Source: Pseudoalteromonas sp. '520P1 No. 423' (GTDB lineage: Bacteria; Pseudomonadota; Gammaproteobacteria; Enterobacterales; Alteromonadaceae). From it: a stretch of DNA of 64,000 nt. Made by a program: the position numbers and the translations under genes. Shown here piece after piece: positions 2,887 to 36,910 of this stretch (position 1 is its first letter; every line of letters begins with the position of its first letter). The notes beneath the pieces were generated by a model that saw only the letters and a list, made by a program, of their open reading frames with translations, had not been told where the DNA came from and made no database searches. The stretch covers positions 558,001 through 622,000 of the forward strand of contig NZ_BBZB01000002.1 in the NCBI RefSeq assembly GCF_001269985.1, read 5' to 3'.

Positions 2887-2910
2887 TATATTGTGCTTTA
2901 AGTTTAAAAA

Positions 2911-14655: not shown

Positions 14656-15318
14656 ATGCGCATCTTACTTGTTGAAGATAATACTGATTTAGCTGCTAGT
14701 TTAGTTGATTACTTAGAAATGAAAGGACATAGTTGTGATTTAGCTTTTAATGGTGAAGCGGGTCTAAACGCCGCAATCTCAAATACTTACGATATGTATA
14801 TTTTTGATATTGCGATGCCTAAAATGGATGGCTTAGAACTGTGTAATGTTATAAGAACGCAATACTATGATTATACACCTATTTTATTTTTAACTGCCCG
14901 AGATACGCTTGAAGACAAAATAGCTGGTTTTGCAGCGGGAGCGGATGACTATTTAATTAAGCCATTTGCTTTAAGTGAATTAATTATGCGCTTAGAAGCA
15001 ATATATAAACGCTATACAGGTGTGAAAACCCAGCTACAAGTAGCCGATTTACAGGTGAATTTAAAAACCGAAGAAGTATCTAGAGCAAATTCAAAAATAT
15101 CGCTTTCGCCAAATACCTATAAATTATTAGTAATTTTAATGCATCGTACGCCTGAAGTCGTTTTAAGGCATGAACTTGAGCATTTAGTTTGGGGTGAGGA
15201 GCTACCTGACAGTGACTCGTTAAGAAGCCATATTTATAAACTACGCAGTAAAATTGATAAACCTTTTGATATTCCATTAATAAAAACAGCAAAGGGCAGA
15301 GGGTTTAGTATTTCATGA
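14656..15318 (+). CDS. OmpR/PhoB-family response regulator
   Basis: A 220-residue two-component regulator. The receiver domain (about residues 1-115) has the acidic pocket VEDN, the phospho-acceptor Asp51 (FDIAMP), Thr in LTARD and Lys in IKPF. The winged-helix DNA-binding domain (about 125-220) ends KTAKGRGFSIS. The gene diverges from the efflux operon and overlaps the kinase gene by four bases (ATGA). The paired tandem repeats in the 212-base divergent region are its best candidate binding sites, so it probably activates the pump and itself. Confidence 0.92.
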   Translation: MRILLVEDNTDLAASLVDYLEMKGHSCDLAFNGEAGLNAAISNTYDMYIFDIAMPKMDGLELCNVIRTQYYDYTPILFLTARDTLEDKIAGFAAGADDYLIKPFALSELIMRLEAIYKRYTGVKTQLQVADLQVNLKTEEVSRANSKISLSPNTYKLLVILMHRTPEVVLRHELEHLVWGEELPDSDSLRSHIYKLRSKIDKPFDIPLIKTAKGRGFSIS

Positions 15319-16670: not shown

Positions 16671-16860
16671 TCATTTAGTTCCAGTAATTAATACTCTACT
16701 AGCCTGTTTTTGAAATACTTTCCTATATCGAGCTTAAATTATTTATCTCGTCTTAATTACTTGCATGGTGATATAAATCGTACTTTAATAACGTGATTCA
16801 CAATAATTATTATTTAGACTTGCGGGGCGCTTGTCTTATTTTAAGCACAAGGATGTATAA

Positions 16861-18036
16861 ATGCCGTTACCTAAGGTATTGGCAATAGGTAAATACATGA
16901 CTATCAGAAAGACCTTTTTTTGGCTGCATTTGATTATTGGCTGTAGTGTGGCAATTTTTATATTTTTAATGTCAATTACAGGTGTCGCGTTAACTTATGA
17001 GCGCCAAATGATTAAATCAGCAGAGCGTAGTGATTATCCAAGTAAGCCTGAAAATATAAATCAGCCTTTGCCTTTGTCAGAAATTTTAGTGATCGCACAA
17101 GGCTATGAAACTAAAAAGACGCCTCAAATCGTCATAGAAAATCGGCCTAATGCACCTGTTATCATTAAAGATGGTAGAATAAAAGTGGCTTATTTAAACC
17201 CTTATACAGGTAAAGAAATGGCAGTTCCGGGGCAGGGCACTAAAACTTTTCTTCGTAAATTACGTGCGTTTCATCGTTGGTTAACTTTAGATGGTAAATT
17301 CAGTGAAAATGGTCGCTGGGTAAATGGCATCTCTAATGTCATTTTTATTGGTTTGATTTTATCTGGTCTTTATTTATGGCTACCTAAAAAACTTAAATCT
17401 CGCGCACTAAAACAAAGACTGACTTTAAGCGGAAACTATAAAAATAAAAGTGCAAGAAATTACCAATGGCATAATGTTTTTGGTTTTTATATGGCACCAG
17501 TGTTATTTATTTTGGCTTTTACAGCGATATTCTTTTCATTTAAATGGCCAGGTCAAACACTCAAACAATATGTATCAACACAATCAACTGAGATGACTAA
17601 ACCAGTAGCGCTTGCAATGGAACAAAAGTCACTTTTATTACCTATTGATAAGCAGTTGGTCACGGTCAAAACGCATTATCCACAATGGCAAAATATTCAA
17701 TTTTCGTTAGGTAATGTGCAAACCAGTAGTAAAATTTATAATGTTGATAATGGCAATGGTGGTGAGCCACAAAAGCGTGTTTCTGTATTAATAGATGGCT
17801 TTAATGGTGAGTTAATCGAAGAAATGAAATTTGAACAAAAATCAACTTATAGCAAACTACGTAGCTATATTAGATTTGGTCATACAGGTGAAGTGTTTGG
17901 CATATTAGGCCAAACGATTGCAGGTATCGCCTCATTACTAGCTTGTTTATTGGTTTATACTGGCGTTATGTTATCTTGGCGACGCTACCAAAGCAGTAAA
18001 AATGTTAAGGAAGCCGAAACAGAGTTGATAAGCTAA
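16861..18036 (+). CDS. PepSY-domain membrane protein (PiuB-like)
   Basis: A 391-residue inner-membrane protein of the PepSY-associated TM family, often linked to iron-siderophore uptake or reduction. Helices are visible near residues 20-45 (WLHLIIGCSVAIFIF), 150-175, 205-228 and 340-368. Conserved His and Trp residues stand at the ends: FHRW in the first loop, and YQWHNVFG and RFGHTGEVFG later. The RBS AAGGA lies about 8 bases before ATG 16861. Met13 is an alternative start. No TonB receptor is directly attached, and a weak AT-rich palindrome upstream is not good enough to call a Fur box. Confidence 0.82.
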   Translation: MPLPKVLAIGKYMTIRKTFFWLHLIIGCSVAIFIFLMSITGVALTYERQMIKSAERSDYPSKPENINQPLPLSEILVIAQGYETKKTPQIVIENRPNAPVIIKDGRIKVAYLNPYTGKEMAVPGQGTKTFLRKLRAFHRWLTLDGKFSENGRWVNGISNVIFIGLILSGLYLWLPKKLKSRALKQRLTLSGNYKNKSARNYQWHNVFGFYMAPVLFILAFTAIFFSFKWPGQTLKQYVSTQSTEMTKPVALAMEQKSLLLPIDKQLVTVKTHYPQWQNIQFSLGNVQTSSKIYNVDNGNGGEPQKRVSVLIDGFNGELIEEMKFEQKSTYSKLRSYIRFGHTGEVFGILGQTIAGIASLLACLLVYTGVMLSWRRYQSSKNVKEAETELIS

Positions 18037-23400: not shown

Positions 23401-23907
23401 ATGAAAAAAACCTTTGATATTTTTAGATTCACCAGCTGGATAGCCATAGTCTGCTCTTTAGTTGGTTCATTTTTATTATTTATTGTTGGCGCTATTAAAA
23501 CTTATTATGCGTTAACAACAGTATTACTGGGCAGAATTCCTAACGAAAGTTTAGCGCATTTAGATTCTTCAGATATTGCAACAGCTTATTTAATTAAATC
23601 TTTAGATACATTTCTAATTGCTTTGGTCTTATTTATATTTGCCCACGGCGTATATACTTTGTTCATTTTTAATAAGAGTGAAAGTAATACTAAACCTGTT
23701 TTAAAGTGGATAAAAACCCCTAATATTGGCCATTTAAAAAATATTTTAGGTGAAGTCATTGTTATTATTTTATTTGTTAAGTTTTTAGAGCTCATTCTTA
23801 TTAATTTGAATAATTTAAGTTGGGAAGTGCTTATATTACCTTTGGCGATTTTATTATTAGCTTTGAGTTTAAAGTTTTTAAGCTTAGGTAAAGAGCACAA
23901 TGACTAA
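23401..23907 (+). CDS. UPF0114 (YqhA-like) membrane protein
   Basis: A 168-residue inner-membrane protein with four predicted helices (about residues 12-35, 65-90, 115-135, 140-160). The sequence around KSLDTFLIALVLFIFAHGVYTLF matches the core of the UPF0114/YqhA family, whose function is not established. It follows the bestrophin-like gene on the same strand and ends at a strong terminator, so a two-gene unit of ion-handling membrane proteins is possible. Confidence 0.82.
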   Translation: MKKTFDIFRFTSWIAIVCSLVGSFLLFIVGAIKTYYALTTVLLGRIPNESLAHLDSSDIATAYLIKSLDTFLIALVLFIFAHGVYTLFIFNKSESNTKPVLKWIKTPNIGHLKNILGEVIVIILFVKFLELILINLNNLSWEVLILPLAILLLALSLKFLSLGKEHND

Positions 23908-23917
23908 GTGAGAATAA

Positions 23918-23946
23918 AAAAATGCCCATATTAAATGGGCATTTTT
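23918..23946. terminator. Bidirectional terminator
   Basis: A perfect 11-bp stem (aaaaatgccca with tgggcattttt) has a 7-base loop, between the convergent UPF0114 and S66 peptidase genes. Confidence 0.92.
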
Positions 23947-23975
23947 GTTTAAAGCCAAATTTACATATTACTTTA

Positions 23976-25004
23976 TCAGCTGAGTGTTTGCTTTATTTTG
24001 CCTACATTGTTTGAAACTGATACATCAGCAAAAGCGCCATTAAACAGGGTTAAGTTAGGTGGTAAATGGCCAATATCAACATCATAAACCACAGGAATAT
24101 CTAAATCGTCTAAAGCATTTGATAGTGCTTCAAATGACGAGATCTCCTTACCTTTATTACTCGTCACTGCATTACGCCCAATTAAAAGGCCATTAATTTT
24201 ATTACAAACCCCTTTAAACTTTAAACTTAATAATGCTCGCATAAATGCGGTGGGCGACATTTCAGCATTTTCGATATATAAGATAATGCCGTCATCTATA
24301 TAATTAAGATGAAAAGCATCAAAATCAAAATATTCAGTGCCAATAATATTTGAAATTGTATCAAAACAGCCACCAATTAAGCGACCACTAAAATTTGCTG
24401 TACTTGATTTATCTAATACTTTCCACAGTGTTGGCTCAGTTAAATTTAATGTGACGTTTGGGTTTTGGCTAAATGATTCATTCTTAATTTGATAAAATTG
24501 AGATGACTGTTGTTCAAAGTTATCATCATCCTTTAGCTTTAAATGCGCTAAAGTACTTGATGTCAACAATTCAGCCTCATCAGGATGTAGTTGCATTAAG
24601 TTAGTTGCATGAACTGTTGACCAATTAAGTTTAGTTGTAAGCGTTGTTAAAACCGTACTCACATCAGAGAAGCCCATTATCCATTTAGGTTTAACCGATA
24701 GTAAACGTTTAAAGTCTAACAAGGGTAAAATTTCCATAGCAAACTCTCCCCCCCAAGGCGGCATGATTGCATCTATGGTGTCATCACATAACATGTCCAT
24801 AAGCTCTTGGGCACGTAACTGCTTACATGCACTGACATGTTTAATATCTTCTCTAAGGCATTGACCTTCAATCACCTCAAAACCTAAATCTTTAAGATTT
24901 TTTAATACAATATCTAAACGCTGATGGCAGCTAGTTGCAACACCAGATGAAAAAGCGGTTATGGCAATTTTACTACCTTGTTTTAATGGTTTTGGGTATT
25001 TCAC
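23976..25004 (-). CDS. S66-family LD-carboxypeptidase (LdcA/MccF-like)
   Basis: S66 serine peptidases cleave L,D bonds in recycled muropeptides (LdcA) or inactivate microcin C-type compounds (MccF). The nucleophile elbow is GFSDVS with Ser113. The Glu (ENAEMSP) and His (DIGHLPPN) of the family triad are in place. At 342 residues with no signal peptide it is cytoplasmic. Length and the overall pattern do not separate LdcA from MccF function. The gene is followed by the shared terminator and preceded by the accessory region. Confidence 0.88.
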   Translation of the reverse strand: MKYPKPLKQGSKIAITAFSSGVATSCHQRLDIVLKNLKDLGFEVIEGQCLREDIKHVSACKQLRAQELMDMLCDDTIDAIMPPWGGEFAMEILPLLDFKRLLSVKPKWIMGFSDVSTVLTTLTTKLNWSTVHATNLMQLHPDEAELLTSSTLAHLKLKDDDNFEQQSSQFYQIKNESFSQNPNVTLNLTEPTLWKVLDKSSTANFSGRLIGGCFDTISNIIGTEYFDFDAFHLNYIDDGIILYIENAEMSPTAFMRALLSLKFKGVCNKINGLLIGRNAVTSNKGKEISSFEALSNALDDLDIPVVYDVDIGHLPPNLTLFNGAFADVSVSNNVGKIKQTLS

Positions 25005-25220
25005 TTTATTCCTAAATTAATGAAACTTCAGACTGTTAAAGGTTACGATAAATAATGTTTCAAAACAACGTTTTACCTATAGATTAAAAAGCCAACTAAA
25101 TTCTGATTTAAAAAGCTGGCATTGATTGCGTTATAAACTGAACTTTTTATACTTCTCTATATAGTTATCTAAGTTCTCATGATTTTCTTTTTTAGTGTAG
25201 AGTCCATTTAAATTAGCAGG

Positions 25221-25258
25221 TGATCCAATCTGTATTAGCATTGATCCGATCTCTTTCA
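25221..25258. repeat. Short direct repeats at the left edge of the accessory region
   Basis: TGATCCAATCTGT at 25221 and TGATCCGATCTCT at 25242 repeat in direct orientation 21 bp apart. The same TGATCC core appears as an inverted pair at 26298-26327. They could be recombinase or regulator sites near the end of the element. Confidence 0.35.
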
Positions 25259-25270
25259 GCAGCTCAAAAA

Positions 25271-26209
25271 TCAAAAGTAAACTTCACCAAATTTATGTTT
25301 TTTAGGTCGGGATTTATTAAGCGCTTTGAGTAGCCATTTTAATCCTTGGTTGCTATCTGGTAGCTTCCATTTTTCATGATTAAAGGCTTCTGCCATTTCC
25401 TGAATAATAAGTGGTTTATTACCGCGATATTTCCAATAAAAGAATTCTCTAGCTGTGGTATGACGGTCAATTATCATCAAATCTTCAGCCATCATTTCAT
25501 TCTTCTGCTCTATGCTGAGCATGTACTCAACAACTTCTACAGAATCAGGCCAAGTAGAGGCTCTTGCTCGAAGGATTTGACGCTGGAGGATATTATCATA
25601 AACGTATGTATAAAGCTCTGGTAAAAAGCTATGAGGACAAAATCGAGATAAAAAATTAAAGAACACATTATATAAATGCGTTTCAATATCATCGTTTATT
25701 AATACTGGCTCACTGTATTGCCGAAACAGCGCTATTAATGCTGCTACAGCATGGTCATCTCCTATCCTGATGAGTTTTTTTAAGGGCTTGTTATCGTCAA
25801 GCATTCGCTCATCGAATAGTCTGGGGTTTTCAATATAATCAAGTACTATTGTCGAAACATTTTTATTTAAGCTGTTATAAAACTCATGCCATTGGTCTTC
25901 ATCACGCTCGATTAATGTTAATGCCTGCCAAAAAGGGGAATGGTAAGTTTTAAGCGCACTAGGACAATGCTCTTTAATACGGCTCATTGATTTTTTACTG
26001 GGCGTTATTCCGTGCTTTAAAAAACGTCTCCATTTTCCTGAATCATAGAGCTGTCCAGTGTTTGGACTTATTTTGATATTTTCTGGCTCGAAATGTTTCT
26101 CCAGTGCATAGCCTGTGAGCCGTAAGTCATTTATCCGTGCGATAAAGTGCAGCATATATTTTACTTTTAGCCGTTCTATCGGATCTTTTTTAGGTCGAGT
26201 CATATTCAA
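25271..26209 (-). CDS. Uncharacterised protein of the IS21-like mobile region
   Basis: A 312-residue soluble protein that I do not recognise. It begins with a basic stretch (MNMTRPKKDPIERLK), contains DSGKWRRFLKHGITPSKKS, which could be a small DNA-contacting region, and is otherwise helical and rich in charged and aromatic residues. There is no signal peptide or membrane helix. It diverges from the small DNA-binding gene and istA operon, so it probably belongs to the mobile element as a regulator or accessory factor. Its minus-strand start is near 26209. Function unknown. Confidence 0.6.
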   Translation of the reverse strand: MNMTRPKKDPIERLKVKYMLHFIARINDLRLTGYALEKHFEPENIKISPNTGQLYDSGKWRRFLKHGITPSKKSMSRIKEHCPSALKTYHSPFWQALTLIERDEDQWHEFYNSLNKNVSTIVLDYIENPRLFDERMLDDNKPLKKLIRIGDDHAVAALIALFRQYSEPVLINDDIETHLYNVFFNFLSRFCPHSFLPELYTYVYDNILQRQILRARASTWPDSVEVVEYMLSIEQKNEMMAEDLMIIDRHTTAREFFYWKYRGNKPLIIQEMAEAFNHEKWKLPDSNQGLKWLLKALNKSRPKKHKFGEVYF

Positions 26210-26297
26210 AAGCCGCTATCCGAACGGTCACTGGTCTATATTTTGTTCGGCATGTCACAGTTAATTATAGCTCGTTATCTTAAAAATGCTTGTTTAT

Positions 26298-26327
26298 GCA
26301 GGATCATAACTATCGTTTTGATCCTGC
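26298..26327. promoter_or_regulatory. 9-bp inverted repeat in the divergent promoter
   Basis: The arms gcaggatca and tgatcctgc are perfect and separated by 12 bases. The site is between the divergent unknown gene and the small DNA-binding gene, about 70 bases before the latter, a natural operator position. Confidence 0.55.
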
Positions 26328-26394
26328 TAGCGAACCCATGTTTTATGAGCTAGGTTTGAAGGATACGTGACAAAGCGGAGCAAAGAGAGTTGAT

Positions 26395-26664
26395 ATGACT
26401 AATGAAGATCTGGCAGAAGCTTTATCAAAAGAGTTAGAGCAGAAGCTGTATGACGAGCATGGCCCAATGATGTTTGGTGATGCGTTAAGAAAAGCCTTGG
26501 GCTATCGCAGTGGGGATGCGTTTCGGCAAGCAGCAAGCCGAGGCACAGTACCTATTCATACATTTAGAATTGAAACCAGAAGAGGTCGATTTGCCATGAC
26601 CAAAGATGTAGCCAAGTGGCTTGCTGAGCAGCGTTATGCCACAGAGGGTGTTGTAATGGATTAG
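26395..26664 (+). CDS. Small DNA-binding protein of the mobile element (putative regulator)
   Basis: An 89-residue protein. The middle reads DALRKALGYRSGDAFRQAASRG, then a basic RRGRFAMTKDVAKWLAEQR, a layout typical of small winged or excisionase-like helix-turn-helix proteins in mobile elements. It precedes the istA operon by 180 bases and diverges from the unknown gene across an inverted-repeat operator. It may be the element's transcription or directionality factor. The exact family is not recognised; the DNA-binding role is inferred. Confidence 0.55.
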   Translation: MTNEDLAEALSKELEQKLYDEHGPMMFGDALRKALGYRSGDAFRQAASRGTVPIHTFRIETRRGRFAMTKDVAKWLAEQRYATEGVVMD

Positions 26665-26686
26665 TTTTTTAGGTGCAGAATGTGCA

Positions 26687-26720
26687 ACGCCAACAATTGA
26701 CTGGTACTCAATGTTGGCGT
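26687..26720. repeat. Hairpin between the regulator gene and istA
   Basis: A 9-bp perfect stem (acgccaaca with tgttggcgt), extended by four more pairs (ttga with tcaa) past one bulged base, has a 7-base loop. No T-run follows, so a structured leader or protein site is more likely than a terminator. Confidence 0.55.
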
Positions 26721-26777
26721 CGATGGTCTTTGTCTTTAAGCAGACACTATAATCATCGTACATTTTTACCGTTTGTC

Positions 26778-26799
26778 AAATTATCTTAGAAGATAATTT
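26778..26799. promoter_or_regulatory. 22-bp palindrome upstream of istA
   Basis: Perfect 10-bp arms aaattatctt and aagataattt are separated by ag, centred about 57 bases before the istA ATG. It could be the istA operator. Confidence 0.55.
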
Positions 26800-26844
26800 A
26801 GGGATTTCTGCGCCTTTATTTTTAATGACTTAAAGGTAAAGAGT

Positions 26845-28395
26845 ATGATTGAGGTACATAAATTAAGAGAAGTCATTCGCTTACTTCTTTTGCCCAAAGG
26901 TTTATCTCATATTTATATTGGCAAGTTAGCAGGTTGCCCTCGGCAAACCGTGGACGTGCTAAGCAATAAGCTATTAGCGTCAGAGATTACGCCTGAATCG
27001 TTTGCTGACTTAGATGATGACGAGCTAAAGCGTCAAATATACCCCAAGTGTTTTATTACAAAACGCTTCAAAATTGAGCCTGATTTTGAAGAAATTATTG
27101 TGCAATGCATTAAAGCCCATAAAAAATATCGTAAAACGATTTGGACTAAGTATTGTGAATATAAACGAAAGTACGGTGACAAAGCTTATGGTAGGTCTCG
27201 GTTTTATCAACTTATAGCGACTTACATTAAGAAAACTCGCTTGTCGATGCTGCAAGAGTTTGCCCCCGGTGAAGTTATGTTTATTGACTATGCTGGGTCA
27301 ACCTTATCTTACTCAAAAGGTGATCAAGAAGTGATGACCTACGCATTTGTGGCAACCTTGGGTTATTCGAAAAAGCGTTTTGCCTATACGACAAAAGATA
27401 TGAGTTCGGCAAGTTGGATTAAGGCCATTATCGCCGCCATAGATTATTTTGGTGGTATTCCTGAGGTCATTCATTGTGATAATGCCAAGGCTATGGTCAA
27501 AAAAGCAGGATTAGTTGCTGAACTAAGTCAATCTGCAAGTGAGTTTGCTAAGCACTATGATGATGTATTAATCGATACATCAAAAGTTGCTACACCAACT
27601 CATAACCCGTTAGCTGAAAATCGTGTAAAAGAGCTGACCCACAGCGTGTTTGCCACAATGAATACTGACCTGACGTTCTTCTCTATTGATGAGATGAATG
27701 CTCATTTAGCCGTGGAAGTTGAAAAGCGTAACGCTAACCCAATTCAGCGTATTGGGCTTAGTGCCAATGACTTGTTTTATTCAGATGAGTCTCACCAGTT
27801 AGCGCCACGACCTAAACAACCATTTGAGCCAGTAACATACCGCACTGTCGTAAAAGTACCTGAAAACTATTTTGTTTGGTATGACAACAATCGTTACTCC
27901 GTGCCTTATGAATATCGAAATGATTACGTTGAGTTGCGTGTTCAAGGTGGAAAACTGTTAATACTTCATAAAGGGCAGCTACGTGTTACTCATGACATTA
28001 TTGAAGGTAAAAATAATGTTGTCTCGATTGATAAACACCTACATCCAAAACATTTGGCTCAGAAGAGTAAAACCAAATCGCACTATATTGAATGGGCTAA
28101 AACCATTGCGCCCTGTGTTGTTAAAGTCGTTGAGCATCTATATAGCAAAACTAAACATGATCATTCTCACCCAATAGGCAAACGTTGCCAAGTATTACAA
28201 AAATTTGATAGTCAATTTGGTGATGTTGCTTTTGTAGCCGCCTGTGAATATGCCCTTCGATGTCACATGCTCAGTGTTAAAGAAATTGAACTTATTTTGA
28301 AATCTAACGTATATGATGTTGAGCCTGATGCTAGTGAAACGACTCATGCAAATTTACGAGGTCAGGATTACTACTCTGGATGTCAATATGAGTAA
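26845..28395 (+). CDS. istA: IS21-family transposase IstA
   Basis: A 516-residue DDE transposase. An N-terminal helix-turn-helix (about residues 15-45) is followed by the catalytic core. The triad is Asp148 (FIDYAG), Asp212 (HCDNAKAM) and Glu258 (LAENRVK), spaced as in IS21 enzymes. The C-terminal domain carries the VPENYFVWYDNNRYSVP segment typical of IstA. It opens a four-gene operon with istB (8-base overlap), a Toprim-like gene and a tyrosine recombinase gene. It appears intact. Confidence 0.93.
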   Translation: MIEVHKLREVIRLLLLPKGLSHIYIGKLAGCPRQTVDVLSNKLLASEITPESFADLDDDELKRQIYPKCFITKRFKIEPDFEEIIVQCIKAHKKYRKTIWTKYCEYKRKYGDKAYGRSRFYQLIATYIKKTRLSMLQEFAPGEVMFIDYAGSTLSYSKGDQEVMTYAFVATLGYSKKRFAYTTKDMSSASWIKAIIAAIDYFGGIPEVIHCDNAKAMVKKAGLVAELSQSASEFAKHYDDVLIDTSKVATPTHNPLAENRVKELTHSVFATMNTDLTFFSIDEMNAHLAVEVEKRNANPIQRIGLSANDLFYSDESHQLAPRPKQPFEPVTYRTVVKVPENYFVWYDNNRYSVPYEYRNDYVELRVQGGKLLILHKGQLRVTHDIIEGKNNVVSIDKHLHPKHLAQKSKTKSHYIEWAKTIAPCVVKVVEHLYSKTKHDHSHPIGKRCQVLQKFDSQFGDVAFVAACEYALRCHMLSVKEIELILKSNVYDVEPDASETTHANLRGQDYYSGCQYE

Positions 28396-29128
28396 CTTAT
28401 TATTACTAATATCTCAATCTAAAGCATTGAAACTAGATGGCTTTGTTGAAGTATTAGAGCAAGATGAAATTGATGACAAATCTAAGCTGGAATTTCTAGA
28501 AAAACTATTTGATGCACAACGAGGTAATAATACTGAGCGTAAGATTAGGAGACTAACGACACAAGCCAAACTCAAATATACCAATGTGTTTTTATCTGAT
28601 ATTGATTACACGCTTTATCCATCGTTAAAGGTTAACCAAGTCAATCAATTAGCTGAATGTCATTGGATTGATACCAATAAAAATATTTTGATAGTTGGTG
28701 CTACAGGCACAGGAAAAACCTCCTTAGTTTGCCGAATTGCTCAAGAAGTCATTGCTAAAGAGCATAGTGTTATTTTTTATCGTTTGTCACATTTGCTTTT
28801 GGAATTAGTGGCTGCGGAAAAAGAAGAAACACTGATGAAATTACTTAAAAAGCTCAGTCGTATTGATGTACTTATTATTGATGATTGGGGTAATGCAAGA
28901 ATGGATAAGAATGAACGCCATTTACTCTTCGAGCTTATTGAGTTTCGTGAATCAAAAGGCGCTTTGCTTATTACCTCGCAATATCCTATTGCAGCTTGGC
29001 ACGAGACCTTTGGCAACGAAACCATTGCCGATTCTGTGCTAGATCGTATTGTGCATAATAGCCATAAAATCAACCTGCAAGGTGAATCTATCCGAAAAGT
29101 GATTGCTGAGCGTGGCGGTGAATCATGA
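28388..29128 (+). CDS. istB: IS21-family helper ATPase IstB
   Basis: An AAA+ ATPase of 246 residues that assists IstA in target choice and strand transfer. The Walker A motif is GATGTGKTS and Walker B VLIIDDWG. I take ATG 28388 (MSNLLLLISQ), which overlaps the end of istA by 8 bases. The frame is open further upstream, but that part runs through istA without a family match. Its stop overlaps the next gene by 4 bases (ATGA), so the proteins are made together. Confidence 0.93.
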   Translation: MSNLLLLISQSKALKLDGFVEVLEQDEIDDKSKLEFLEKLFDAQRGNNTERKIRRLTTQAKLKYTNVFLSDIDYTLYPSLKVNQVNQLAECHWIDTNKNILIVGATGTGKTSLVCRIAQEVIAKEHSVIFYRLSHLLLELVAAEKEETLMKLLKKLSRIDVLIIDDWGNARMDKNERHLLFELIEFRESKGALLITSQYPIAAWHETFGNETIADSVLDRIVHNSHKINLQGESIRKVIAERGGES

Positions 29129-29937
29129 TTAGTTCTTACTTATTGCAGCATAAAGGGTTTAACCAATTATCCTTACTATCAACCCCTACGGTTGAAACAA
29201 ACACGCAGCAGCAAATTGAATTTTTGTATGAGCACTACCAGTATCGTGCCATTGAGCTTGATAAAGCGTTAAGCTTCTTTAGGGGGCGTGCCCTCAACGA
29301 TACAAGTATTAAGCAATTTAAGCTCGGTTTTGCCGATACATCGCTATGCCGATTGTTTCAACAAGTGCCTAATCAAGCAGCATTTCGAGAAATATTAAAA
29401 CGTTTTGGTTTTTTATCTCCTAAAGGACATCAACTGTGCTTAGGCTGTGCTGTTTTTCCAATTATTGAAAACGGTCAAATTAAAGGGGCATATGGCCGAC
29501 GTATCTCGACAGTATCGGTTCGAATGGAATCGTCGATATATCCGTTTTATTTAGCAAATGAAAATTTACTCTTTAATCAGGACTACCTGCATACTCAACC
29601 TAAATGTATTTTGTTATGTAAAAGTCCCTTAGAGGCGGTTAGCGCCATGCAATTGAGTGACACTAAGGCGCTATCACTGGTCGGCAGCATCGACTTTAAT
29701 GAAGCCCATGCAGAGCATCTAAAGACATGTGGTGTCAAATTAGTAAAGCTCGCCTTTAACTTATCTGAGTATTACCAAGATAAAACCCAAAAAATTGCAG
29801 AGCTTCTTGCTGAGCAGCGCATTAAATGCCGTATTGCTGACTTACCAAGTTGGCAAGATATTAATCACCTGCTTTGTCACGAAGCCTCTGCGAAGAAACG
29901 CTTTCATCGCTTGTTGCGTCAGGCTCGTTCTGTCTAG
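29125..29937 (+). CDS. DnaG/Toprim-like protein of the istAB operon
   Basis: A 270-residue protein resembling the DnaG primase core without the CHC2 zinc finger. The YRAIELDKALSFFRGRALND and IKQFKLGFA segments match 'yL..RGi....I..F.lG' of primases, and YGRRIS with LLFNQDYL fits the start of the core. In the Toprim part the expected EGxxD and DxD acids are not present (CKSPLEAVSA and AFNLSEY instead). It is therefore probably not an active primase and may act as a DNA- or nucleotide-binding accessory factor. It is translationally coupled to istB (ATGA overlap), and the recombinase follows 9 bases later. The domain call is moderate and the function unknown. Confidence 0.6.
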   Translation: MISSYLLQHKGFNQLSLLSTPTVETNTQQQIEFLYEHYQYRAIELDKALSFFRGRALNDTSIKQFKLGFADTSLCRLFQQVPNQAAFREILKRFGFLSPKGHQLCLGCAVFPIIENGQIKGAYGRRISTVSVRMESSIYPFYLANENLLFNQDYLHTQPKCILLCKSPLEAVSAMQLSDTKALSLVGSIDFNEAHAEHLKTCGVKLVKLAFNLSEYYQDKTQKIAELLAEQRIKCRIADLPSWQDINHLLCHEASAKKRFHRLLRQARSV

Positions 29938-29946
29938 GAGAACACT

Positions 29947-30936
29947 ATGCGTGAAATGAAAGAAATTTTAACGCTTGTTGATGGCTTGCAATATTACTTA
30001 GACCATTGTTTCTCACATGACATCGAGGCATCGACCATTAATGGTAAAAAGTGTTTGCTTGAACGCTTTGTGTTGTGGTGTCTTGTGAATGACGTTGTTT
30101 TATTAAAAGACATTAACTTAGCCTTAGTGAATGAATATCGTTTATTTGCACGTCAAAATTACAAAGGCAAAACAGGGGAGCCTATTCAAAAGAACTCGCT
30201 TCGAAATATCATGACAGCGATTAAAGTCTTCATTCGATGCTTGTACATGAATGAGATATTAGATGTTGACCCGCTAGGCCGACTTGAGTTGCCAAAAGCA
30301 GCTAAGCGTGTTCCATCTAATGTGCTTGAAAAGCATCAAGTGACTAAAGTATTTGAAATCCCCTTACTTTATGGCGACAAGGGGATGAGAGATAGAGCAA
30401 TCCTTGAAACGTTTTACGCATCAGGCGTACGCCGTAAGGAGCTAATTAATTTACGCGTAAGTGATATCAACTTTGAAAAAGGAGAACTGCTGGTTTTTAA
30501 GGGAAAAGGTGACTCAGATCGTAAAGTACCTATCGCGCCTCGAACCTTAATGTGGCTGAAGTATTATATTGACCATATTCGTCCTAAGTTGATACGCATT
30601 CACAGTGGAGAGCAGTTATTTTTAAATAGTGTAGGAAAGCCTTTTACTGAATCAGCCATGAGTAGCTTGGCGAGCAAATATATCAAAGCCGCAGGGTATG
30701 ATGAAATGGGAAGCTGTAACACGTTTCGCCACTCTGCTGCGACCCATATGTTAGAAGGTGGTGCTAGCCTTCGTTACATTCAAGAGTTTTTGGGTCATGC
30801 AAGCATTAGCACCACACAAATTTATACTAAAGTCAGCATTAAGCAGTTACATATCGTCTATGGTGACTCGCATCCAGCTAACCATATACCCTTGGATGAA
30901 AGAGTCGAAAAAGCCCTTTTACAAGATGTGGCTTAA
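29947..30936 (+). CDS. Tyrosine recombinase of the istAB operon
   Basis: A 329-residue integrase of the XerC/D-like type, with a core-binding SAM-like domain (about residues 10-115) and a catalytic domain. Catalytic residues seen are Arg162 (SGVRRKEL), Lys187, Arg261 in NTFRHSAATHML, His284 (LGH) and the nucleophile Tyr293 (QIYTKVS). The usual His three residues before Arg261 is Asn258 (AAC codon), an uncommon change that might lower activity. An AGGAG-type site precedes the ATG, and it closes the four-gene operon. Its stop codon abuts the stop of the convergent AbiEii gene with no spacer. I see none of the extra residues typical of integron integrases. Confidence 0.88.
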   Translation: MREMKEILTLVDGLQYYLDHCFSHDIEASTINGKKCLLERFVLWCLVNDVVLLKDINLALVNEYRLFARQNYKGKTGEPIQKNSLRNIMTAIKVFIRCLYMNEILDVDPLGRLELPKAAKRVPSNVLEKHQVTKVFEIPLLYGDKGMRDRAILETFYASGVRRKELINLRVSDINFEKGELLVFKGKGDSDRKVPIAPRTLMWLKYYIDHIRPKLIRIHSGEQLFLNSVGKPFTESAMSSLASKYIKAAGYDEMGSCNTFRHSAATHMLEGGASLRYIQEFLGHASISTTQIYTKVSIKQLHIVYGDSHPANHIPLDERVEKALLQDVA

Positions 30937-31881
30937 TCACAGTCGATTCAATATGGTTTGAGTTAACGTGCGAAAGCTTGCAAACGCATCTACCCATGTA
31001 ACAGGTTTGTTTGCATAAACCATAGGGGCTACATACGCTTGATAACGCTGTTGATGTTCATCGGTTTCAGCAAGCAAGGTTAAACCATACCTAAGTTCAT
31101 CAACAGGTGCAGTGACTAGCTCTACGTGTTGATTACCGTAACGTGCAATGTCTATTTGTATTACCTTATCTACCAATACTGTTAAATCATCAATATCAGA
31201 AGGTGACTCTAACTGAATGTGATGGGTATCGTAGATATGACGAATAAGTGTTTCATCATCTTGACGTTCATGGTTACGAGCATGGCTAGCAGTGCGTCGT
31301 AACATTGATATGAGTTTTTCTGCTTGCGTGTCAATAATGCTAGCGCACACGAATGTATCGATTTCACAAGGCTCGCTAACTGTTTGGCTGTATAGCGAAC
31401 TGATTTCGCGATTAACAGAACCACTTAATAATTCTGATTCGATAAGCTCTAGTTTTATATATGGTCGTAAACATGGCGCTTGTTGGTATGCTTGGGGGTA
31501 TTTAACATCGAAACACATATAACGATATTCATCTCGGCGAATAACATCTGAATCTAATTCGAAAATATCAGAATCATCAATTAATACACAGACGGCATTG
31601 TAAATATCCTTTCGTACATTCTTTTTAGCATTTCTAGAAGGGAGTGATTTGAAATCATCCGTTGGCACGAGCTTTAAATCAACATCTTCTGACATACGGT
31701 ATGTTTTGATGTTTGATTTAGCTAATGCTGTACCGCCTGAGAAAACCAAACGATGGTAAGGTGTTTCGACTTGCTGAATAAGCTTTAAAAGCTGAACAAC
31801 ATAATAGTCTTTTTCAACAATTGTCGGGTTACTTAGACCTATTGCATCAGCGACATCTGAAAACAGTGAACTATCCAGCAA
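30937..31881 (-). CDS. AbiEii-type nucleotidyltransferase toxin
   Basis: The toxin half of a type IV abortive-infection system. AbiEii proteins are nucleotidyltransferases that halt growth on phage infection. The 314-residue protein has the family opening VEKDYYVVQLL, the GG motif (VFSGGTALAK, Gly49-Gly50) and the metal-binding SEDVDLKL (Asp66, Asp68). A further Lys/Asp pattern continues in the middle. The gene overlaps its antitoxin gene by 11 bases, so translation is coupled. It is convergent with the recombinase gene with zero spacing and may be cargo of the istAB-type element. Confidence 0.85.
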   Translation of the reverse strand: MLDSSLFSDVADAIGLSNPTIVEKDYYVVQLLKLIQQVETPYHRLVFSGGTALAKSNIKTYRMSEDVDLKLVPTDDFKSLPSRNAKKNVRKDIYNAVCVLIDDSDIFELDSDVIRRDEYRYMCFDVKYPQAYQQAPCLRPYIKLELIESELLSGSVNREISSLYSQTVSEPCEIDTFVCASIIDTQAEKLISMLRRTASHARNHERQDDETLIRHIYDTHHIQLESPSDIDDLTVLVDKVIQIDIARYGNQHVELVTAPVDELRYGLTLLAETDEHQQRYQAYVAPMVYANKPVTWVDAFASFRTLTQTILNRL

Positions 31882-32275
31882 TATTTACCCCTTGTGAGCC
31901 TACGGCAATCTTACGCGTAAAGCGTGAAGATTTAGGCTTGATCAACACTTTGGCTGGTATTTGAGTGCTTTGACCTAGCATGTTCGATAAAGATAGTGCA
32001 TCAAACTGGTAGTCACGCCCTAAACGTTCCATTGCCTCAATGAGTACACCATCAGCACCTGCTGGGTTATCAGGCATAGGCTTACCTGTAATACGGTTTA
32101 AACGAGCACGCACATATAAACCGTATCCGATTTTAATAAGATCACCAGTAGTAACCATTTGACGTAAGATTCGTCCTACTTGATCATAATTGGCGATGTC
32201 TTTAAAGTCTGAACGCAAAAAGACAGAACGCTTTGAGCGTGAAACTCTAACCTTAATTCTGCTTTTAATAGTCAT
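31871..32275 (-). CDS. AbiEi-type antitoxin (DUF6088-like winged helix)
   Basis: The antitoxin of the AbiE pair, a 134-residue protein. The middle carries the winged-helix pattern DFKDIANYDQVGRILRQM and then LIKIGYGLYVRA, which is typical of AbiEi/DUF6088 proteins that repress their own promoter. At this length it lacks the long C-terminal half of classical AbiEi. It overlaps the toxin gene by 11 bases. Three 24-bp repeats ending in a palindrome lie just upstream and are its likely binding sites. Confidence 0.78.
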   Translation of the reverse strand: MTIKSRIKVRVSRSKRSVFLRSDFKDIANYDQVGRILRQMVTTGDLIKIGYGLYVRARLNRITGKPMPDNPAGADGVLIEAMERLGRDYQFDALSLSNMLGQSTQIPAKVLIKPKSSRFTRKIAVGSQGVNIAG

Positions 32276-32308
32276 ATAACACCTCGTTTTTCAACAATTC
32301 TAGTATAT

Positions 32309-32389
32309 GCAAAAATACGACATTTTTCAATTACAAAAACACGACATTTTTCAATTGCAAAAATACGACATTTATGTCGTGTTTCTGCA
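32309..32389. promoter_or_regulatory. Three 24-bp tandem repeats and palindrome at the AbiE promoter
   Basis: Copies at 32309-32332, 32333-32356 and 32357-32379 share AAAAAYACGACATTT, with a cysteine-like spacing of exactly 24 bp. The third copy continues into an inverted partner, so that acgacat and atgtcgt form a palindrome across tt (about 32364-32379). They lie 34-104 bases upstream of the antitoxin start. AbiEi antitoxins are known to bind repeated sites in their promoter and autoregulate. Confidence 0.72.
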
Positions 32390-32521
32390 TTTAAGTAGTG
32401 CTCGGTTTAGGGAAATTTTTGAAGTAAGATTGAATAATCTTATATATTTGATAAATTACAAAAAGCTTATTTATTAGCTAGTTATTGCTCTTTAACTCTA
32501 TCGAACTTCTGTGGAATTCAT

Positions 32522-33670
32522 ATGAACGGTCGGATCTACGATCCAACGTTGGGGAGATTCTTGCAGGCAGACCCGTTTATTCAGGCACCGAGTAATTCAC
32601 AGTCGTATAACCGTTATACTTATGTTTGGAATAACCCGTTAAGTTATACCGATCCGAGCGGGTATTTTGTTAAGTCTTTCCTTAAAGGCATGATGAAAGT
32701 TACTGGTACGGGCCATATACTGAGGGCGCTAGCCAAGGTTCCGATACTGAATTCCGCAGTGCAAATAGCGATCGGGATTGGTTGTGGTACTGCTGCTGCA
32801 CAATGTTTAGCTGCTTATAATGGTTTACAGAGTTATGCTGTCACGGGAAGTTTAGGGGCAGGGTTAAGGACAGCGGCGATTTCTTATGCTCAGTCTTGGT
32901 CGTTGCAACAAATTGGAGCCAGTAAAACTTGGGGCGAAGCTGGTTCGATAGCAAATGTGTCTGCTAATGCTTTGGTAGGTGGTGTTAGCGCAGAGCTTCA
33001 AGGAGGAAACTTTGGGCATGGATTTGTTTCGGCAGGTGTGGCGTCAGCATTTAAACCATTATTAAATGATATTGGTGGTGAAAATAGTGCCAATGCTGCA
33101 ATTGATAGGGGTGATGTTTCTGCTTTATCATATTACAAAGTTCATCGCATAGTTGGTGCATCAGTAATAGGCGGTACAACTTCAGTTATCAGTGGCGGCA
33201 AGTTTGCTAATGGTGCTGTTACAGGGGCTTTTACACAATTATTTAATGCCGAAACTAGCAATAAAAAGAAAGCAGAGTGGGTAAAGGCTAACCCTGAACA
33301 TGCTAGGGTTATCGCAAAATTAAGACTTGTGGCTCAAGATGCTGCAAATTCTTATGATAGTACGTGTAGTGATTGGGAATGTGCGATACCTTGGAGACGG
33401 GGTACAGGCATTCATAAAATATTTGCTGATAAAGTTGATGCACTTGGAGTCGATTATAATGCTGAAGTATCATACAAAAATGGTCTTCTAGTTCCTTATG
33501 GCACGAAAGGTTCAGTCCGAGCAGATGGTGTATATGGCCCAATAGCTAACCCTGAAATACTCTTCGAACTAAAAACAGGATTTTGGAATTATATGTCTGT
33601 TGGTGAAGCGAATAATTATTTTGAGCATATCCCTGATGGGTCTGCCCTCAGTCTGATAAAAGTTGACTAG
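32522..33670 (+). CDS. Orphan Rhs C-terminal toxin with PD-(D/E)XK-like nuclease tip
   Basis: A 382-residue orphan tip of an Rhs protein. It begins within the conserved end of the Rhs core (MNGRIYDPTLGRFLQADP ... NPLSYTDPSGY, residues 1-48) with no upstream core; homology starts near 32507 and a stop occurs at 32435. Residues 49-245 are Gly/Ala-rich pretoxin sequence ending GGKFANGAVTGAF. The tip (about 246-382) carries TGIHKIF, EVSY, SVRADGVYG and LFELKTG, whose Asp and ExK acids look like a PD-(D/E)XK nuclease. It lacks export parts of its own, so this is probably a displaced toxin cassette. The immunity gene follows 8 bases later. Confidence 0.75.
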   Translation: MNGRIYDPTLGRFLQADPFIQAPSNSQSYNRYTYVWNNPLSYTDPSGYFVKSFLKGMMKVTGTGHILRALAKVPILNSAVQIAIGIGCGTAAAQCLAAYNGLQSYAVTGSLGAGLRTAAISYAQSWSLQQIGASKTWGEAGSIANVSANALVGGVSAELQGGNFGHGFVSAGVASAFKPLLNDIGGENSANAAIDRGDVSALSYYKVHRIVGASVIGGTTSVISGGKFANGAVTGAFTQLFNAETSNKKKAEWVKANPEHARVIAKLRLVAQDAANSYDSTCSDWECAIPWRRGTGIHKIFADKVDALGVDYNAEVSYKNGLLVPYGTKGSVRADGVYGPIANPEILFELKTGFWNYMSVGEANNYFEHIPDGSALSLIKVD

Positions 33671-33678
33671 GTTGAATA

Positions 33679-34275
33679 ATGAATAAAAAGAAATTAACAA
33701 AACTTATATTGAAAGAATTTCCTACTTTTTCAAATAGTGGGGATTATATTTTTGTAAATCCATTAGAGCATATCCTCAGTGGCTTTCTTATCGAAAAAAC
33801 CAGACGCGGAATATATATTTGGCGTTTTATATATCCCTTATTTGATTGTAATGAACATTTGAGTTTGCTTTACAGTGATCGCTTGGATGTTTCAAAATTT
33901 TATATTAATTCTAGTGAACTGAGTGATAAAGATATTTCAGATAAAGATATTTCAGATAAAGTTTTAAATATAATTCAGCAAAACATATATTTAGCGCATG
34001 AATGTAAAACAATAGCTGATTTTTGTACGGAACTTCAAAACAAAAAAGGTATTTTAGAGCATAAGCATGCACAGATGATTTATGGGTTTGCTCTTATTTT
34101 AAATAATAAAGAAGAATTAGCTAAAGAATATCTATTGTTATCAGTTAGTAAACTATCAGAACCTTTTAAAAGTCGTTGTATGGAAGTTCTTAAAATGCTA
34201 GATAATGATGTTGATTCGGCTAAACAAGTAATCTTAGAATTGGAAGATAGAATGAAACAACTCTTAAAAATATAA
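33679..34275 (+). CDS. Probable immunity protein of the Rhs toxin
   Basis: A 198-residue soluble protein starting 8 bases after the Rhs toxin stop. I do not recognise the family. The central part has a short amino acid repeat (SDKDI twice, then SDK) matching a 15-base DNA repeat at about 33922-33960, and the C-terminal half is helical and rich in Lys/Glu/Leu, like TPR or ARM arrays. The position directly after an Rhs-CT gene is the main reason for the immunity call. Confidence 0.55.
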   Translation: MNKKKLTKLILKEFPTFSNSGDYIFVNPLEHILSGFLIEKTRRGIYIWRFIYPLFDCNEHLSLLYSDRLDVSKFYINSSELSDKDISDKDISDKVLNIIQQNIYLAHECKTIADFCTELQNKKGILEHKHAQMIYGFALILNNKEELAKEYLLLSVSKLSEPFKSRCMEVLKMLDNDVDSAKQVILELEDRMKQLLKI

Positions 34276-34292
34276 CATTTAACATAAAATTA

Positions 34293-34325
34293 AGGGAGTA
34301 ATGGTATTTGAGAGTTACTCTCTTT
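34293..34325 (+). terminator. Possible terminator after the toxin-immunity pair
   Basis: The gagtaa and ttactc arms, and an alternative gagag/ctctc hairpin, lie about 20 bases after the immunity stop and are followed by tttt. Confidence 0.5.
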
Positions 34326-34395
34326 TGATTTCAAACCTCTCACGAACTGAACGAAGGTTTGGCTTCTTTGGGAGCAAAGTGATTAAAGCAAATTA

Positions 34396-34415
34396 AAACC
34401 AGCGAAAGCTGGTTT
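34396..34415 (-). terminator. GAAA-loop hairpin terminator-like element
   Basis: A perfect 8-bp stem (aaaccagc with gctggttt) has a gaaa loop. It lies 3 bases past the stop of the minus-strand gene remnant and on that strand is followed by a T-rich tail. Confidence 0.6.
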
Positions 34416-34418
34416 CCT

Positions 34419-34735
34419 TTAGGCCAGCAACAGTTTTTTAGCCAAAAGTAATAACGAAACATAGTCAGAGAAATTTAACGGTAGTTCGAGTAATTGCTTT
34501 TCGGCTAATTTTGTTCGGACTGTCCTGCTAATATCGTTTGGATCAGATGCTAAAGTTGCTTGGATTGACTGCTAATAGTGAGTGGATTTTGCATTTAGCA
34601 AGTTTGATTGCTTTGTTTATGTAAAGTAATGCCGATGTTTGGTTATTTTGTGCATGAAAAACATCAGCTAATGTACGCATAGCAAATTGTGAGTTTGGAT
34701 AAAGCTTTAAACGATACTCAGCGATATGTAATGCG
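34419..34735 (-). pseudogene. TPR-like gene remnant
   Basis: On the minus strand a truncated frame reads TALHIAEYRLKLYPNSQFAM and then FHAQNNQTSALLYINKAIKLAK, a TPR-like pattern with a repeated Ala/Tyr spacing. After a frameshift the last 46 codons (DISRTVRTKLAEKQLLELPL and LLLLAKKLLLA) lead to the stop at 34421-34419. The 5' part is missing at the junction with the next remnant. The parent family is not recognised, and the gene is clearly dead. Confidence 0.5.
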
Positions 34736-34738
34736 GTA

Positions 34739-35967
34739 TCTAAATTGTTATTTCAAAGAAAGATGTGAGTGTACTCATAGAGATCTGTCTCTATTGTTAG
34801 TTAGCCTCATTTTATTTGTGAGTACATTTTTATATTTCAAACCTCAACCATTTGAAGCTAAATTTCAACATCGAAATATCATTACCTCAAGTCAGTCTCC
34901 TGAATTTCAAAGTGTATTTTCACCAAGTGAAAATAAGATCATTTATATTAAAAAAATACAGATAATAAATCGGTTTTAATTGAGTCTGATTTAGGTAAAA
35001 AACTCAAAGAATCGTTAGTAATACCAATTCCAATAAATATGAGATCAATCTAAATAGTCTAAATGTACAATAGCTGTGTTGCTTTCAATCCCAATAGCCA
35101 GCTATTGCTCAATCAAGCGCCTTGCTCTTGAAAATTTATCCTAATTTATATTAGATCATTAACTTAATAGAACTGGTATAAAGAATATGATGTAGGTATT
35201 AGCTTTGATTATGCCAATACTGACAAATCAATATTTGCATTGGTGAAAACAGATGCAAGCCAATTAGTTAAGATTAATTTAGAAGATGGTACAGAAACTG
35301 TTTTAGATATCAATAAAATAGGCCATGTAGATAATATTAAACAAATTAAAGCACAATTTTTAAATTTAAATGGTGAAGTATTTCCTATACAAATTGCCTC
35401 ACACAAAAAAAACACTATCCAAATTTTAATCGCAAAGGTCAGTTGTTAATAACGGAAACGAGTTTAGATACCGACTTATATGTTTTTGATACTAAAACCA
35501 ATGGTAAAAAATTAGTATCTGATTCTATTCATCAAGATCTCATAGTAATACCCAGTTTAACGAATAATAAGCAACTTATCGTTTCAAGACGATTGGGTAA
35601 AACGCAAATATTTTTAAAGCATAATGAACAGCTAAGCTTTGCTTATGCGAATGAAGGCGATGCAGAATATATTAGCCCGCCAATATGGTCACCAAATGAA
35701 GAAAATATCGCTTTTAGTGCCGATGAAAAGTTAGTTTTTATAAATCTCAAAAAACTAGAAAGAAAACTATCAACTTTGGATTATGATATTACTCGTGTAT
35801 TAGATTGGCATGAAAATGGTAATAAAGTTTTATTAAAAGGTGTTAACCAAGGGCAAGATTATTACATCATTAATAATGGCTTTAATCATATTATGAAATA
35901 TAACTTTCCTAAAAGCATGTTTCATTTAACTGGGGTGAGTAAAAAGCTTAATCACCTGTATTTTTAA
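34739..35967 (+). pseudogene. CadC-like transmembrane regulator, interrupted by a MITE
   Basis: Pieces of a transmembrane sensor-regulator (winged helix, one TM, beta-propeller) of the kind common in Alteromonadales. The wHTH is lost. A TM segment (LLLVSLILFVSTFLYF) precedes a periplasmic start (SPSENKIIYI) that shifts frame near 34960. A 159-bp MITE at 35021-35179 splits the gene. The sense resumes (YDVGISFDYANTD), shifts frame again near 35420, and continues with PD40/propeller repeats (DLYVFDTKTN, SPPIWSPNEENIAFSAD) to TAA 35965-35967. No single product can be made. Confidence 0.6.
35021..35179. mobile_element. MITE-like insertion with inverted termini
   Basis: A 159-bp element with no coding sense. 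Its ends are imperfect inverted repeats (ataccaattcca on the left, mirrored by aatagaactggtat on the right). It splits an otherwise continuous reading frame, and TA flanks suggest a Tc1/mariner/IS630-type target. The internal sequence contains a further hairpin (ttgctc...gagcaag type). Confidence 0.65.
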
Positions 35968-36046
35968 AGCGAAACTAAAAAACAACAAAATGAAATTTTG
36001 TATGATTAATCTTGGGCATGATGATAAACATGCCCATTTCAGATCG

Positions 36047-36910
36047 CTAAGATACAAGCCCTTTATTCTTTGACTCTATTTTTGCTAACCATAATAAAGG
36101 TGCAATAATAAAAAGGGTGCCAACTGCCATGGTTAGATCTGGTATTTCATCAAACCAAATAATACCAACAGCCACTGCACACAATAGACCACTATATTCG
36201 GCGCTGGCTATTTTACTTGCATCACTAGAGCGATAAGCCACGATGCAAATACCAGCATAGATCAAAATAAAACTACTAGAACCTGCCGCTGTGAGCATAG
36301 GTGTAAAATCCCAGGGCTTTCCTTCATATAAAGCTAAAGCAAATGCGATTGGAATGCCGACTATATTTGTCATAAATAAGGTTTGAAATACATTTTGCTG
36401 CTTTGGTAGCTTTCTTATTAGCAAATTATTTACTGCCATAGTGAATGCAACGATTAAAGCTGCAATGGCAGCCCAGTCTATATGTGTAGGGCGAATAACA
36501 ATTAAAACGCCTATAAAACCAAAAATAGCGACACCAACAGCATGTTTAGATAACTTTTCATTAAATAGCACCATAGCAAGTGGCAGCATTAATAAAGGTG
36601 CGGCATAAAAAATAGCATTGACCGTTGCTAATGGCATTGAGCTAATTGCAATCACCATAAATACAGCACCTATTAACCAAATATGACCACGGATCACGTG
36701 CCATTTTAAACCTTGTTTAAAAGCTGTTTTTTTACCGATAAAACATAAAGGCAATAATATTAATGCCGCTGTAATTTGTCGAAAAAGTACAAATTGGTAA
36801 ACAGCAATATCTTCAGAAAGTGTTTTGATCAAAGCATCAGAAAATACGGCAATTAAATTACCTATTACAAGTAAAATCATGGCTAAACCAACAGTCATAT
36901 TATTCATCAA
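36047..36910 (-). CDS. EamA-type (DMT family) transporter
   Basis: A 287-residue inner-membrane exporter with ten predicted helices in two EamA repeats (residues about 8-140 and 150-280). Typical repeat endings FNEKLSKHAVGVAIFGFIGVLIV and WFDEIPDLTMAVGTLFII are present. The substrate (amino acids, metabolites) is unknown. ATG 36910 is chosen, but Met2 or Met5 are possible. It diverges from a LysR-type regulator across 118 bases, which probably controls it. Confidence 0.87.
   Translation of the reverse strand: MMNNMTVGLAMILLVIGNLIAVFSDALIKTLSEDIAVYQFVLFRQITAALILLPLCFIGKKTAFKQGLKWHVIRGHIWLIGAVFMVIAISSMPLATVNAIFYAAPLLMLPLAMVLFNEKLSKHAVGVAIFGFIGVLIVIRPTHIDWAAIAALIVAFTMAVNNLLIRKLPKQQNVFQTLFMTNIVGIPIAFALALYEGKPWDFTPMLTAAGSSSFILIYAGICIVAYRSSDASKIASAEYSGLLCAVAVGIIWFDEIPDLTMAVGTLFIIAPLLWLAKIESKNKGLVS

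Follow-up and report, generated by a model that had tools for sequence, protein, structure and literature searches.

Why should a DDE transposase, its helper ATPase, a primase-like protein and a tyrosine recombinase be encoded together in one operon? The question is raised by a stretch of 64,000 nucleotides of Pseudoalteromonas sp. '520P1 No. 423' (contig NZ_BBZB01000002.1, positions 558,001 to 622,000, hereafter the window), which sits on the smaller contig of a two-contig genome of 5.39 Mb. A preliminary description had listed istA, istB, a Toprim-like gene and a tyrosine recombinase gene, preceded by a DNA-binding gene, and had proposed a mobile element that combines two transposition chemistries. 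This four-gene operon is real and conserved, and forms the driving part of a larger mobile element. The extent first given, 26395..30936, covers the operon, while the element itself reaches from 25196 to 34593 and includes a displaced Rhs tip that had been missed and is the key to the element's likely function. Rhs proteins are antibacterial weapons with constant cores and changing toxin tips, and we know of no dedicated enzyme for the exchange of these tips. The element is probably composed of two modules, in which IstA and IstB disperse the unit while the insertion or exchange of tips falls to the tyrosine recombinase, at a site within rhs genes designated R1.

All five genes are found where they had been placed (Table 1). 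The overlap between istA and istB is 8 bases if istB starts with the ATG at 28388 (its longest open reading frame, ORF, starts at 28313), the overlap between istB and the Toprim-like gene is 4 bases, and a 9-base gap separates the latter from the recombinase gene, as first reported. IstA passes the cut-offs of the rve and Mu-transpos_C_2 models and falls below that of the IS21 transposase model (142.9 versus 160), while IstB is above the cut-off of the NCBIfam IS21 helper model (213.9 versus 200 bits). The small gene ahead of istA has a sub-cut-off match to PrtN (PF11112; 21.7 versus 24.2).

When 394 genomes of the order were searched for Toprim, the same operon turned up in other genera, and profile searches of 395 and 369 genomes gave family members at more than about 75 bits and ordinary DnaG mostly at 35-60 bits. 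The regions examined cover 45 of the 46 matches above 75 bits in the 395-genome search (G667:C1:3737071 was left out) and the 18 matches of the 369-genome search except for the G1061 neighbourhood; the neighbourhoods of the long-primase matches in G331, G349, G096 and G177 (394-genome search) were left out. Loci L042 and L043, whose contigs are the same as those of L164 and L183, and loci L152, L158 and L159 were dropped before loci were counted. In the resulting survey, 41 rows have istA, istB, the primase-like gene and the recombinase gene on one strand, one being the window (L125) and one repeating a unit (L194/L193), so the set is not a chance association. Nor is the Toprim-like gene a fragment of an ordinary dnaG. 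A broken housekeeping dnaG is rejected because the related genes elsewhere are likewise degenerate or shortened, and also on the phylogeny of the recombinase.

The element in the window is 9,398 bp long, with TG...CA at the outermost repeats and TTTAG on both flanks. The four repeats of its right end (RE) span 34502-34587, and about three repeats, inverted relative to these, form its left end (LE). The nearest IstA and IstB among 40 others belong to locus L148 (63% and 68% identity), whose ends are homologous to those of the window (29/40 bases at the left end, and 25/40) and whose duplication is different, AATAA; the homologous ends with a different duplication provide independent support for the ends in the window. 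TG...CA ends are also found in L150, which has the duplication CAAGC, and in L159. The clearest case comes from Pseudomonas aeruginosa, where about 24.7 kb is inserted within a gene of the plasmid pPUV-9, as seen by comparison with pPUV-4. This insert has TGTAGGG...CCCTACA ends and a 6-bp duplication, AGGGGG, and pPUV-4 provides the clean empty site. Target duplications of 5, 5, 5 and 6 bp thus occur in four elements (window, L148, L150 and pPUV-9), one of which has an empty site. From these sequence comparisons, transposition of a unit with IS21-type ends is well supported.

Ends were also sought blindly, as TG...CA pairs with duplications, in 31 loci, and in most of these a reversed-flank control scored about as high as the top candidate. 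Of the accepted pairs, those of L150 and L159 (the latter without control) came first and that of L148 second. No convincing pair emerged when ends were sought near the operon alone (25800-32600), the accepted ends lying farther out. The close relative G461, a sister species, was considered as an empty site of the window element and rejected, because the stretch absent there, 23890-36061, is larger than the element and includes an S66 peptidase gene to its left and gene fragments to its right. The variability of this region would be compatible with unrelated genes having come to lie side by side by chance within a variable island, but the four genes occur together in 41 rows, form a well-supported clade and are accompanied by target duplications, so that chance is scarcely credible.

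The link to Rhs becomes apparent downstream of the operon. An Rhs core end follows the recombinase gene on the same strand within 6 kb in 27 of the 31 operon rows with at least 2.5 kb of downstream sequence. As a control, 74 loci of other tyrosine recombinases were taken, 65 of them with enough sequence, and a core-end match lies downstream in 1 of these 65; the core-end profile was built from 15 family-locus sequences and may be less sensitive to distant Rhs types in the control. The position at which Rhs sequence begins is fixed. When a displaced tip is defined by a stop within 50 codons upstream and compared with 19 intact sites, the switch to Rhs sequence falls at identical codons in 59 distinct displaced tips (L-I-H-M-N-G-R-x-Y-D, for instance, or L-I-Y-M-Q-A-R-Y-Y-D), as would be expected of the fixed integration site of a site-specific integrative element. 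In the window, many matches from the genus start at 32515-32519. Many elements have a TGGATCGTA-like sequence directly upstream of the Rhs boundary, which mirrors TACGATCCA within rhs, and the mirror match of the 11-bp arm averages 0.479, compared with at best about 0.31 for shuffled upstream sequence.

A simpler reading of this association is an IS21-type transposon that carries Rhs tips as ordinary cargo, its tyrosine recombinase resolving cointegrates or dimers and R1 being simply the place where conserved core ends undergo homologous recombination. Transposons that combine DDE transposition with a tyrosine resolvase are known (TnpI in some Tn3-type transposons), and the core ends have 60-160 bp in common, with an identity of 73-92%, which is enough for some homologous exchange. 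Homologous exchange, however, would scatter the boundary, which lies at the same codons in the 59 displaced copies, and the type of R1 follows the recombinase and primase and, much less, istAB. We regard this reading as unlikely.

The second of these points rests on operon units in which R1 is clear, 31 in number but filtered differently from the 31 rows of the downstream count. Four R1 types occur among them: HMNGR (17), YMQAR (8), YNxxR (5) and YYKAR (1). The trees of the recombinase and of the primase each require 3 changes of R1 type, the minimum, compared with 8 for istA and 9 for istB. With shuffled labels the mean is 12.6-12.7 changes, and the observed values were reached in 0, 0, 1 and 3 of 1,000 shuffles for recombinase, primase, istA and istB, respectively. 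The recombinase and primase fit R1 perfectly, while istA and istB retain some R1 signal, as relatedness would give. IstA and IstB go instead with the transposon ends. L148, so close to the window in IstA and IstB, differs from it in R1 type and ranks only 22nd (primase) and 23rd (recombinase) of 40 by closeness to the window. The two are thus alike in IstAB and ends and unlike in recombinase, primase and R1 type, so that the window itself displays the two modules. A functional tie of the recombinase and primase remnant to R1 is, as judged from these trees, strongly supported. Of the combined movement first proposed, the DDE half is supported by the ends of four elements and their target duplications, and the tyrosine half only indirectly, by the tie of the recombinase to a fixed rhs site.

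The recombinases linked to IstAB form one clade of 48 tips (support 0.995), 44 of which have istA or istB nearby. Its sister clade, with 27 tips (26 with a long primase and 1 other; support 0.904), lacks istAB, and the two are joined with a support of 0.694. Occurrence of the last two genes without istAB in most relatives had been named in the preliminary description as a sign of chance. Such pairs do exist in the sister clade, but the primase there is long and catalytically intact, with E, D and D kept in 30 of 31 long primases, and the four-gene set makes up a clade of its own. Rhs core ends are found on either side of 11 of 26 long-primase loci, which again does not favour Rhs tips as ordinary cargo of an IS21-type transposon; they lie downstream in 3 of the 13 loci with enough sequence, and this weaker link to Rhs is partly due to short contigs. 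In E. coli, relatives are present in 55 of 5,426 genomes at a median of 4 places each, and the two regions examined have tandem units behind an rhs gene. A circular Shigella record of 8,758 bp, either a real circle or an assembly product, is about 99% identical to one of the tandem units of this clade over 8.8 kb. The C-terminal part of the sister protein gives a low-confidence model (pLDDT 67, pTM 0.39) and weak MCM-like matches, which are not relied on.

That the sister clade manages without IstAB, and that istA and istB have been swapped between units, could also mean that the tyrosine recombinase and primase alone move the unit as an integrative circle at rhs, istAB being a captured hitchhiker that moves the unit occasionally or never. 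We hold this to be quite improbable, since four elements have TG...CA ends and IstAB-type duplications at sites without an adjacent Rhs core, and istA or istB is near 44 of the 48 recombinases of the clade.

The recombinase resembles PRK01287 (E 2.2e-84), though under its cut-off (283.5 versus 371), and is also under the housekeeping equivalog cut-offs of XerC (202.0 versus 335.15) and XerD (202.2 versus 329.6). It retains the arginine, lysine, histidine and tyrosine positions. Its partner has a weak match to the dnaG model TIGR01391 (E 2.9e-8), and the AlphaFold2 model of the partner (pLDDT 83) has DnaG domains (RNA polymerase domain) as its best matches in the PDB. The loss of the catalytic acids noted in the preliminary description is confirmed: K, N and S stand at the positions of E, D and D in DnaG. 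The E is found in 0 of 23 relatives that keep the Toprim region, a count that leaves out four long-primase fragments (in which E, D and D are kept), three sequences without readable residues and the duplicate of the window. Another 27 relatives, counted from a listing, are shorter and lack most of the Toprim domain. The retention of the first half, together with the co-variation with R1, suggests a structural role for the remnant beside the recombinase.

These observations can be arranged into a mechanism. The order of parts is LE, divergent gene, regulator, istA, istB, degenerate primase, tyrosine recombinase, cargo, R1, Rhs tip, immunity gene and RE. The first module (IstA, IstB, LE and RE) would carry out IS21-type transposition, with duplications of 5-6 bp and targets unrelated to rhs. 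The second (tyrosine recombinase, degenerate primase and R1) would act at the fixed site within the rhs coding sequence. A circle formed by the unit could be cut at R1 and undergo R1 x R1 recombination with an rhs gene already in place; the incoming tip and its immunity gene would then join the Rhs core in frame and the old tip would be pushed downstream, while the reverse reaction would excise the unit. The most likely role of the primase remnant would be that of a recombinase partner without catalysis of its own, for DNA binding or directionality.

The arrangement of repeats around some units at rhs loci bears on the entry of such a circle. Among 15 loci where R1 lies upstream, 7 (L147, L149, L165, L169, L193, L196 and L200; L193 is doubtful at 68% identity) have a second direct repeat 0.4-2.8 kb past R1 on each side of the element, and L166 has a more complex repeat array. 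In L147 and L149 the second repeat, of RE type, is placed after the immunity genes. L149, L196 and L200, as read by eye, have an RE-LE junction with a short spacer and a far RE without matching duplication, an arrangement more in keeping with a circle that entered through R1 than with simple transposition. Two different units stand in tandem in L196, in one direction.

Several observations weigh against the two-module reading. The TTTAG pair of the window was picked by eye and is not among the pairs shown by the blind search. Four of the 31 operon rows (L041, L160, L173 and L188) have no downstream Rhs core end, although L160 has an Rhs gene upstream instead, and four loci of the IstAB recombinase clade have no istAB nearby. 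The trees of istA and istB also fit R1 better than nearly all shuffles. Intact sites reach a mirror match of 0.392 at another offset, with about 0.24 at the offset of the elements (summed from a listing); the mirrored arm of the window matches at 6 of 11 positions, and some elements show none. In the recombinase, Asn replaces the first His of HxxR, which is His in most tyrosine recombinases; a pattern search of 77 family recombinases gives H in 47 and N in 21 at this position. None of the four TIGR03696 matches of the host genome is an intact rhs of the R1 type of the window, and for IstAB-type units neither recombination nor a circle has been observed.

With these points taken into account, the two-module element remains our preferred reading, and we lean, with some reserve, towards a wider proposal: that the tyrosine recombinase and pseudo-primase constitute a dedicated warhead-exchange system, which splices tip-immunity units in frame into rhs and keeps displaced tips as a store, and that one lineage swapped the long primase for an IS21 module, turning a circle-former into a transposon. 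The recombinase appears dedicated to splicing spare tips into large rhs genes, and the element may explain how bacteria swap the warheads of their weapons. If the recombinase works at R1, tip exchange would be a site-specific reaction; two unrelated recombination chemistries would be at work in one element on tasks that can be separated, and the fold of a primase would have been kept without catalysis. Since the sister group is present in E. coli, the question of tip exchange is open to study there.

The element has features in common with several known systems, each of which differs from it. As in the IS21 family, istA precedes istB and overlaps it slightly, the ends are TG...CA with multiple terminal repeats, and the duplications measure 5-6 bp. 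An IS21 element would hold nothing beyond istAB, while the elements here, 9.4-24.7 kb long, have two more conserved operon genes and a second recombination site, with AbiE cargo and an Rhs tip in the window. Tn4430 and Tn5401, Tn3-type transposons with a tyrosine resolvase, likewise combine a DDE transposase and a tyrosine recombinase in one transposon; here the transposase is of IS21 type and the recombinase is tied to a toxin-gene site instead of an internal resolution site. With Tn7 and Tn5053/Tn402 the window element shares a DDE transposase with an AAA+ ATPase, repeated terminal sites, 5-bp duplications, accessory proteins and defence cargo. It differs in its DnaG-like remnant and tyrosine recombinase and in having no TniQ match in Pfam scans of ten element proteins (E up to 1 or up to 0.01). 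Integrons also have a tyrosine recombinase, promoterless cassettes and silent arrays, but here each unit has its own recombinase, and the site is within a coding sequence, so that insertion would change the protein. Orphan or displaced rhs tips, known as a core end, a variable tip and a small gene without a full Rhs core, belong here to a defined mobile unit that has a recombinase. The nearest described system found is rAID of Bacteroidales, in which a tyrosine recombinase lies next to arrays of interbacterial-warfare genes; in the accessible portion of its description these arrays hold immunity genes only, and IstAB, a primase remnant and an Rhs site do not appear (PMC12247911). The long primase and XerC-like pair of the sister clade, for example in E. 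coli rhs arrays, shares a related recombinase and primase core, displaced Rhs tips and tandem units, and differs in that its primase, about 840-1080 aa in length and with a long C-terminal part, is intact and that IstAB is lacking. Literature searches, in which most papers were judged from listings, returned no description of the element or of a dedicated tip-exchange enzyme.

Table 1. Features of the element in the window (window coordinates)
Feature	Position	Strand	Remarks
Target duplication, left copy	25191..25195	.	TTTAG
Left end (LE)	25196..25262	.	TG terminus; about three repeats of ~21-25 bp, inverted relative to right end; counted by eye
Divergent 312-aa gene	25271..26209	-	No Pfam match above cut-off
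Small putative DNA-binding gene	26395..26664	+	Kept ahead of istA in several relatives
istA, DDE transposase	26845..28395	+	Profile matches
istB, helper ATPase	28388..29128	+	Longest ORF from 28313
Degenerate DnaG-type primase core	29125..29937	+	DNAG_N and Toprim; catalytic acids lost
Tyrosine recombinase, XerC-like	29947..30936	+	
Cargo, AbiEii	30937..31881	-	Convergent with recombinase
Cargo, AbiEi / DUF6088	31871..32275	-	
R1, proposed recombination site	32490..32560	+	Limits estimated; Rhs sequence starts abruptly at ~32516
Displaced Rhs tip, core end and variable C-terminal domain	32522..33670	+	382-aa ORF; TIGR03696 at 32516-32662
Putative immunity gene	33679..34275	+	198-aa ORF; by position only
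Right end (RE)	34502..34593	.	Four 19-nt repeats at 22-23 bp spacing; CA terminus
Target duplication, right copy	34594..34598	.	TTTAG

The Rhs tip in the window has the layout of an orphan tip, with a core end, a variable domain and a small gene after it. Its toxin activity is presumed by analogy, and the downstream ORF is a putative immunity gene by its position; neither ORF has a Pfam match. Weak similars of the divergent 312-aa gene occupy the equivalent position in L041 and L149. The pPUV-9 copy carries the operon, an Rhs tip, LmuA and LmuB (Lamassu) matches and a Fic-type candidate defence protein. Three 24-bp direct repeats at 32310-32381, just upstream of abiEi, may be the abiEi operator.

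A second, decayed unit is found in the host genome at G000:C2:370217-372890 (L226:10218-12891). It consists of a C-terminal fragment of the recombinase (57% identical), R1 (83% over 156 bp), another tip and a small ORF after it. Outside the element, 163 bp of the window (35019-35181) are 94% identical to G000:C1:638853-639015. A search of the window against E. coli DNA gave no match.

Other arrangements were seen among the relatives. The L148 element is flanked by arrays of ~60-110 bp repeats (410-3316 and 15721-17196, oriented) that resemble an integron cassette array, and in L146 two copies of a 762-bp piece containing an Rhs core end, 99.5% identical, flank the element (1457-2218 and 14763-15524, oriented). 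L195 and L201, possibly decayed arrays, have a short primase and a recombinase without istAB, with Rhs core ends on either strand. On the Salmonella plasmid of L162 (5730-18816), the long primase and XerC pair lies upstream of two-partner secretion genes, which are annotated as ShlB/FhaC/HecB and a hemagglutinin-repeat protein.

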